A DNA stretch of 64,000 nucleotides from Bdellovibrionales bacterium RIFCSPHIGHO2_01_FULL_40_29 (GTDB taxonomy: Bacteria > Bdellovibrionota > Bdellovibrionia > Bdellovibrionales > Bdellovibrionaceae): the NCBI GenBank assembly GCA_001771815.1, contig MEPU01000013.1, positions 496,001-560,000 of the forward strand. Reading direction: 5' to 3'. Shown here piece after piece: positions 24,377-25,436 of the stretch (position 1 is the first letter of the stretch; each line of letters begins with the position of its first letter). The translations under genes and the position numbers were made by a program. The notes beneath the pieces were generated by a model that was not told the DNA's origin, did not search any database, and worked only from the letters and a program-made list of their open reading frames with translations.

Positions 24377-24399
24377 TAAAAAGGTACCAGCTCACTTTT
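24377..24399 (+). repeat. 23-nt perfect repeat TAAAAAGGTACCAGCTCACTTTT (copy 1)
   Basis: Exact reverse complement of 25414-25436. Confidence 0.95.
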
Positions 24400-24631
24400 C
24401 GCTGTACCTGCATGTCTTAGCTCTACCTAAAATTAACTAGATATAAGACTCAAATAATTTAATTTTGAGTCAGTTTTTTCTCATTCCTCTAAATTTAATG
24501 CAGCGCATTAAAGTCATAAAATCGTAAATAATTAAGTAATTACAATATTTTATCGAATTTAATTTCATGTAAGATTTTTCATTGCAAAATTTACAGGAAT
24601 ACATTTAGATAAGGCGGTTCCAAATTGGAAC

Positions 24632-24658
24632 TTAAGTTTCTGGCAAGGATGCCGATAA
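24632..24658 (+). promoter_or_regulatory. Sigma-28 (FliA)-type promoter
   Basis: TTAAGTTT-N11-GCCGATAA versus E. coli consensus TAAAGTTT-N11-GCCGATAA. Confidence 0.8.
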
Positions 24659-24721
24659 GGGTAGCCAAAGCGAAGCGACCCGCATACGAAAAAGCTTGAA
24701 AGAGCAACTAACGGAGGGGAA

Positions 24722-25105
24722 ATGGCAAAGAATACTGGAAGTAAGCTCACTGATAAAGTGATCAAGGATTGCCGCGATAAACTATTGAAATCAAAAATGG
24801 ATCTTTTGAATCGAGTTAAAGAAGCCCGTGAAAAACTAGATTTGGGTGAAAAAGGTGGAGACGAAGCAGATCAAACAATGCGTCTCTTGGCAGAACAAGA
24901 GATGTTAAATTTGAATGATCGTTTACGTTCACAACTCTACGAGATCGAAAGCGCACTTGGCCGTATTGAAAATGGATCTTTTGGAACGTGTGAAGAGACT
25001 GAAGAAGCCATTGAAGTTGAAAGACTTCGCGCTATTCCTTGGACTCGCTTGAGTATCGAAGGTGCGGAGATTCGCGAATCAGTAAATAAACGTTACGCTC
25101 GTTAA
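24722..25105 (+). CDS. DksA/TraR-family regulator with degenerate zinc finger
   Basis: Coiled-coil N-terminus with DEADQT and ALGRIENGSFGTCEETEEAIEVERLRAIPWTRLSIEGAE; SD GGAGGGG upstream. Confidence 0.85.
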   Translation: MAKNTGSKLTDKVIKDCRDKLLKSKMDLLNRVKEAREKLDLGEKGGDEADQTMRLLAEQEMLNLNDRLRSQLYEIESALGRIENGSFGTCEETEEAIEVERLRAIPWTRLSIEGAEIRESVNKRYAR

Positions 25106-25326
25106 TAGACTTTTATATTAAAACCCTCTAATGCAACTGATTCGCTTTCAGTGAGATATTCGAGGGTTTTTTCTTTTTGAAATCCTAAGTGAGATTGAAT
25201 TTCAGCAGCAAGCATCTTTTCATTCTGGATTGATTCCGCCACGATGGCAGCAAAGTCTTCAATAGCTGCAAAGACATGAATTCCCCACGCAAAAATAAGT
25301 ACTAAAAAGATCCATCTTAAACTCAT
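25102..25326 (-). CDS. Small secreted/membrane hypothetical protein
   Basis: MSLRWIFLVLIFAWGIHVFAA signal-like; SD AGGAGG with ATG at 25326. Confidence 0.65.
   Translation of the reverse strand: MSLRWIFLVLIFAWGIHVFAAIEDFAAIVAESIQNEKMLAAEIQSHLGFQKEKTLEYLTESESVALEGFNIKVY
25120..25175 (+). terminator. Putative intrinsic terminator of the DksA-like gene, inside the convergent CDS
   Basis: AAAACCCTC ... GAGGGTTTT stem with inner ACTGA/TCAGT stem, then TTCTTTTT. Confidence 0.65.
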
Positions 25327-25413
25327 AAAGCCTCCTGGCTTTGTTAGTTGGCTTTTCCTGATGTTTAGACGGAGCCAGCTATCGCTGAGGTTAAAACGAC
25401 GCACCGCTTACTA

Positions 25414-25436
25414 AAAAGTGAGCTGGTACCTTTTTA
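25414..25436 (-). repeat. 23-nt perfect repeat (copy 2, inverted)
   Basis: Reverse complement is TAAAAAGGTACCAGCTCACTTTT; its first three bases are the speB stop codon. Confidence 0.95.

Follow-up and report, generated by a model that had tools for sequence, protein, structure and literature searches.

Introduction

DksA-family proteins that do without a C4 zinc finger have already been described, among them Pseudomonas aeruginosa DksA2, a Zur-repressed spare for zinc starvation (PMC9213440), as well as Rhodobacter sphaeroides RSP2654 and Sinorhizobium SMc00469, both of which act like DksA (PMC9239242). In E. coli, the residues D71, D74 and A76 form the tip behind the DksA-specific effects (PMC5886539), and the K98A and R129A variants bind RNA polymerase (RNAP) and shorten complex lifetime, with no ppGpp support at site 2 (PMC7676912).

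The life cycle of predatory bacteria has two stages, a hunter that swims fast and does not grow and a second form that grows. In the Bdellovibrio-type predators, FliA (sigma-28) is reported to be the master regulator of the attack phase and to control many non-flagellar attack-phase genes (PMC3627812, PMC5430801), and the sequence TTAAG-N16-CCGATA is given for 92 of 140 attack-phase promoters of strain HD100 (PMC3627812). A FliA deletion was not obtained, FliA being essential, and in E. coli the factor from B. exovorus activates promoters of its own species (PMC5430801). Additionally, the mRNA of the HD100 dksA gene Bd3519 drops on leaving the attack phase, and the authors of that work read the gene as a ppGpp-coupled, stringent-response DksA (PMC2797640). 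In their main text, Karunker et al. name no DksA-family member and do not use the term dksA, and a search of the literature for published RNA data on the B. exovorus clade found none.

The window considered here, i.e. the whole 64,000-nucleotide stretch of DNA that was analysed, comes from a Bdellovibrio-type predator of the Pseudobdellovibrio/exovorus clade, and it carries a dksA-like gene preceded by a FliA-type promoter sequence.

Promoter architecture

The elements upstream of and including the gene are the following, with their positions in the window:

24582-24611, plus strand: putative older housekeeping-type promoter, TTGCAA (24582-24587), 18 nt and TAGATA (24606-24611), assigned from sequence
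24617-24631, unstranded: palindrome GTTCCAAATTGGAAC, candidate operator, from conservation and enrichment
24632-24639, plus strand: TTAAGTTT, putative sigma-28 (FliA) -35 box, 7/8 to the E. coli FliA -35, conservation 0.92
24642-24653, unstranded: inverted repeat GGCA-AGGA-TGCC, overlapping the sigma-28 spacer and -10, from paired arm changes
24651-24658, plus strand: GCCGATAA, putative sigma-28 (FliA) -10 box, 8/8 to the E. coli consensus, conservation 0.91
24713-24719, plus strand: putative ribosome-binding site GGAGGGG, from sequence, with a G-rich site here in nearly all orthologues
24722-25105, plus strand: DksA/TraR-family open reading frame of 127 aa without a C4 zinc finger, from the reading frame and family match

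The older promoter, which would be used by sigma-70, is about 0.9 conserved within the genus, and the palindrome sits where its transcript is expected to start; transcription from the sigma-28 promoter would begin at about 24664-24666. The near-consensus sigma-28 site described in an earlier note on this DNA is present as claimed, the two boxes being separated by 11 nt, with 63 nt between GCCGATAA and the ATG at 24722. It also matches the published attack-phase FliA consensus, the distance from TTAAG to CCGATA being N15 by our count, as in E. coli TAAAGTTT-N11-GCCGATAA. The genome itself encodes a FliA that scores 269 bits, over the curated cut-off.

Four sigma-28-like sites with at most three mismatches occur in the window, where 1.15 are expected, and that of the dksA-like gene is the best of them. 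Genome-wide statements rest on pattern searches: TTAAGTTTN{10,12}GCCGATA has a single match in the whole 2.93 Mb genome and none in the reversed control, and the looser TTAAGN{14,16}CCGATA has 13 matches against five in the control. Among dinucleotide-shuffled upstream regions, the best score in 300 nt reached at least 13 in 1.7% and at least 14 of 16 in 0.2%, and 16/16 never. The flagellin promoters of the same genome match the consensus less well (best 14/16), so strength of match need not equal strength of use.

Comparison within the genus covered 12 members of the Pseudobdellovibrio/B. exovorus clade with a readable upstream region, the source genome included. The best sigma-28 score lies between 13 and 16 of 16 in all 12, and in the alignment of these regions the two boxes are more than 90% conserved, compared with 0.67 for the spacer, 0.32 for the leader and 0.52 for the sequence further upstream, a pattern that constitutes a promoter footprint. 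The proposed sigma-28 site ahead of a secondary-channel-type DksA-family gene is borne out, and it is selectively conserved. In some species of the genus the spacer is 12 nt long and both boxes are intact. Origin by chance is ruled out by the uniqueness of the site in the genome, the shuffled upstreams and the conservation within the genus, and judged by its sequence and distribution the sigma-28 promoter is real.

Close homologues without the promoter, which the earlier note had held to count against its reading, are absent within the genus, where all 11 other members with a readable upstream region carry the site, and common outside it, where most orthologues lack one and a few score 13-15. 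Such outside-genus sites may perhaps represent independent gains of FliA promoters; in one locus of another genus of the family (L028, genome G019), TCAAGTTT-N11-GCCGATAA lies 105 nt before the start codon of the orthologue and scores 15/16. Since the site is conserved in the genus and absent from most other genera, the FliA promoter appears as a genus-level addition directly downstream of the older, palindrome-bearing promoter. In several species of Bdellovibrio proper, CTTAAG already follows the palindrome and the -10 is missing, which suggests a route by which the FliA promoter could have arisen.

Scanned against Rfam, the promoter and the leader gave no credible riboswitch or structured RNA, and a conserved leader structure was rejected, leader length and sequence varying across the genus. 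A match to the S15 leader on the other strand, at 25219-25338, stayed under the gathering score.

Probable attack-phase expression and the older promoter

The earlier note had called the gene motility-coupled. The proposed coupling is better described as one to the attack phase than to motility alone, because in these predators FliA is essential and acts as master regulator of that phase (PMC3627812, PMC5430801).

Evidence on expression comes from HD100. In a 3,782,950-bp genome that we presume to be that of HD100, the orthologue lies at 3,422,680, fliA (bd3318) at 3,232,822 and the other two DksA-type copies near 3,738,000. The distance from bd3318 corresponds to about 195 gene numbers, 201 being expected, and at 974 bp per number it points to about Bd3513. 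As this spacing fits and the other two copies are distant, Bd3519 is almost certainly the orthologue of the dksA-like gene. Upstream of it, the palindrome and the older promoter are present and the sigma-28 site is absent. Expression of the gene in the attack phase is therefore probably older than the FliA promoter.

This apparent attack-phase expression without a sigma-28 site means that FliA may only top up the level of the protein, and it opens the way to the best-surviving alternative. According to this account the sigma-28 promoter works, the older promoter and palindrome exert the main control, and the product is a general housekeeping RNAP factor serving both life stages. The older arrangement, in which TTGCAA is followed after about 18 nt by TAGATA, TTAATA or TAAATA and then by GTTCCAAATTGGAAC, is indeed kept through much of the order, whereas the sigma-28 site is confined largely to one genus, and the gene was found in 59/59 related genomes searched. 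Nevertheless, a housekeeping factor for both stages sits poorly with the fall of the HD100 mRNA on leaving the attack phase (PMC2797640), and within the genus the sigma-28 boxes are conserved as well as the older ones, so that we regard this account as rather unlikely.

The protein and its key residues

The family match identifies the protein as a genuine member of the DksA family: it reaches 35.1 bits against PF01258, above the cut-off of 24.9, and the motif TCEET...LSIEGAE reported for it is there. It falls below the cut-offs for DksA equivalogs (54.5 of 115.5 bits for TIGR02420 and 51.7 of 105 for NF033459). The canonical CxxC...CxxC finger is absent, the corresponding positions being C90, T93, S111 and G114. 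The earlier statement that only one cysteine remains holds for the finger (C90) and fails for the protein, whose first helix carries a second one, C17, shared by 113 of 114 distinct orthologues.

The description of the protein as having lost its zinc finger is correct in that no C4 finger exists and misleading in that it implies a recent event. The finger state C90/T93/S111/G114 is identical in 113-114 of the 114 distinct orthologues across the order, which places the loss of the zinc site long ago; a recent loss was rejected, T93, S111 and G114 being invariant or nearly so.

In the AlphaFold2 model (pLDDT 83.7), helices span residues 11-40, 48-84, 99-104 and 112-125, and the coiled coil, globular domain and C-terminal helix are arranged as in DksA. 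Foldseek TM scores are 0.84 to DksA2 (4ijj), 0.80 to 1tjl and 0.80-0.81 to E. coli DksA. With P. aeruginosa DksA2 as the best match in both sequence and fold, the view of a DksA2-like, finger-less secondary-channel protein is upheld, and the protein is predicted to keep the DksA fold without zinc. The source genome contains two further DksA-type genes in tandem before lon (L062:849-1742), one finger-less and one with a full C4 finger, and many family members share the same three copies. A Zur-type zinc-starvation role as in DksA2 is without support, because the gene is universal and a C4 paralogue is also present.

At the tip, the protein retains the equivalents of D71 and D74 of E. coli DksA, and T52 takes the place of A76, a substitution found as Thr in 110 of the 114 distinct orthologues, with Ala in three from another family of the phylum; activity may differ as a result. 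Furthermore, four of the five ppGpp site-2 residues are replaced throughout the order (114 distinct orthologues), L95, K98, R129 and K139 corresponding to Q71, E74, I105 and A115, with R91 kept as R67, and on the RNAP rim beta' N680 is kept.

These replacements bear on a second alternative, namely an E. coli-like stringent-response DksA, coupled to ppGpp and placed under FliA. The modelled DksA fold, the retained beta' N680 and the HD100 authors' own interpretation of Bd3519 (PMC2797640) speak in its favour, and an action of ppGpp at site 1 is still conceivable; yet in E. coli a single alanine at K98 or R129 is enough for site 2 to be lost (PMC7676912), and here Q, E, I and A stand throughout the order in place of L95, K98, R129 and K139. 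Classical ppGpp-coupled action is consequently doubtful, and we consider this alternative improbable. Judged by residues and by the behaviour of the K98A and R129A variants, the protein would be expected to act like DksA but without being coupled to ppGpp in the usual way, and the ppGpp-DksA logic should not be taken for granted in this order.

Palindrome and inverted repeats

The palindrome at 24617-24631 is 0.94 conserved in the genus alignment, and of the 112 distinct orthologue upstream regions, 80 contain its core GTTCCA-N3/4-GG, compared with 0.2% after shuffling. Among the matches listed, AGTTCCAANWTGGMAC occurs 40 times in 35 genomes, both strands being counted so that separate places are fewer, and never in the reversed control. 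The palindrome is likely the site of a regulator with a small regulon.

The form GTTCCAA-N-TTGGAAC was seen in the window at 24617-24631 and in three further loci (L036, L037 and L038, each at 1501-1516). Across the genus, the candidate regulon would comprise the dksA-like gene, two secreted subtilases and a GYF/TPR-repeat protein, whose upstream region contains the palindrome and several extra TTCCAA/TGCCAA half-sites. In several species the palindrome precedes a secreted subtilase that is divergent from an uppP-like gene, and four subtilase upstreams (L101, L105, L122 and L129) carry a GATACGAT-like motif about 20 nt before it, possibly another promoter type.

The GGCA-N4-TGCC repeat at 24642-24653 is a candidate operator, or a candidate hairpin of the longer transcript: its arms jointly become GGAA/TTCC in two genus members and its loop varies freely. 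The weakest alternative, that the sigma-28-like sequence is a binding-site array for another regulator (palindrome plus GGCA/TGCC repeat) and not a promoter, draws on the position of the -10 within this jointly changing repeat and on similar half-sites 5' of other genes, but it is very improbable, the two boxes, spaced 11-12 nt apart, fitting the attack-phase FliA promoters reported as mapped (PMC3627812) and CCGATA being kept although the inverted repeat alone does not demand it.

A perfect 20-bp inverted repeat, AAAGGTACCAGCTCACTTTT, also flanks the gene at 24380-24399 (plus strand) and 25414-25433 (minus strand), about 1 kb apart; these are the only two copies in the window, with none expected by chance.

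Proposed mechanism and comparison with known systems

Taken together, the reading that we hold to be probable is that of an attack-phase, abundance-controlled secondary-channel regulator, an ancient zinc-free DksA-family protein whose gene gained a FliA promoter in Pseudobdellovibrio. The protein would enter the RNAP secondary channel and weaken open complexes at selected promoters, for example those for ribosome synthesis. With the FliA promoter gained just 3' of the older housekeeping-type one, the level of the protein would be raised by FliA holoenzyme, which is active while the cells swim freely in the attack phase and do not grow, and the shut-off of FliA at prey contact would let this level fall. 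The main control would lie in the amount of the protein and not in ppGpp at site 2.

The wiring is new and the parts are known. More tentatively, and with some doubt on our side, it is possible that an order-wide DksA-family protein without zinc or ppGpp site 2 uses its own level as the signal in place of the alarmone, and that one predatory genus put this level under FliA, directly imposing a growth brake on the hunting stage. In that reading a disulfide between the conserved C17 and C90 could add a redox switch. If true, a FliA-driven, DksA-type brake without a ppGpp site would directly link the hunting program to ribosome synthesis.

Among known systems, the C4 paralogue (L062:1401-1742) belongs to the same family and the same cell, and differs in keeping CEGC...CISC and in standing in tandem with the second finger-less copy. 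P. aeruginosa DksA2 (4ijj) is alike in having the DksA fold without a zinc site; read from alignments, it retains the K98, R129 and K139 equivalents and the tip Ala, all of which are replaced here, and whereas DksA2 is a spare, the present protein is the order-wide standard copy, served by putative FliA and housekeeping promoters. RSP2654 and SMc00469, compared by description only, likewise lack the C4 finger and are reported to retain other functionally important DksA features (PMC9239242). Bd3519, which position and sequence (73% identity) mark as the orthologue, shares the older promoter and palindrome and has no sigma-28 site. Finally, the Bdellovibrio attack-phase FliA regulon shares its promoter consensus with the dksA-like gene, which would depend on FliA in the mechanism proposed.
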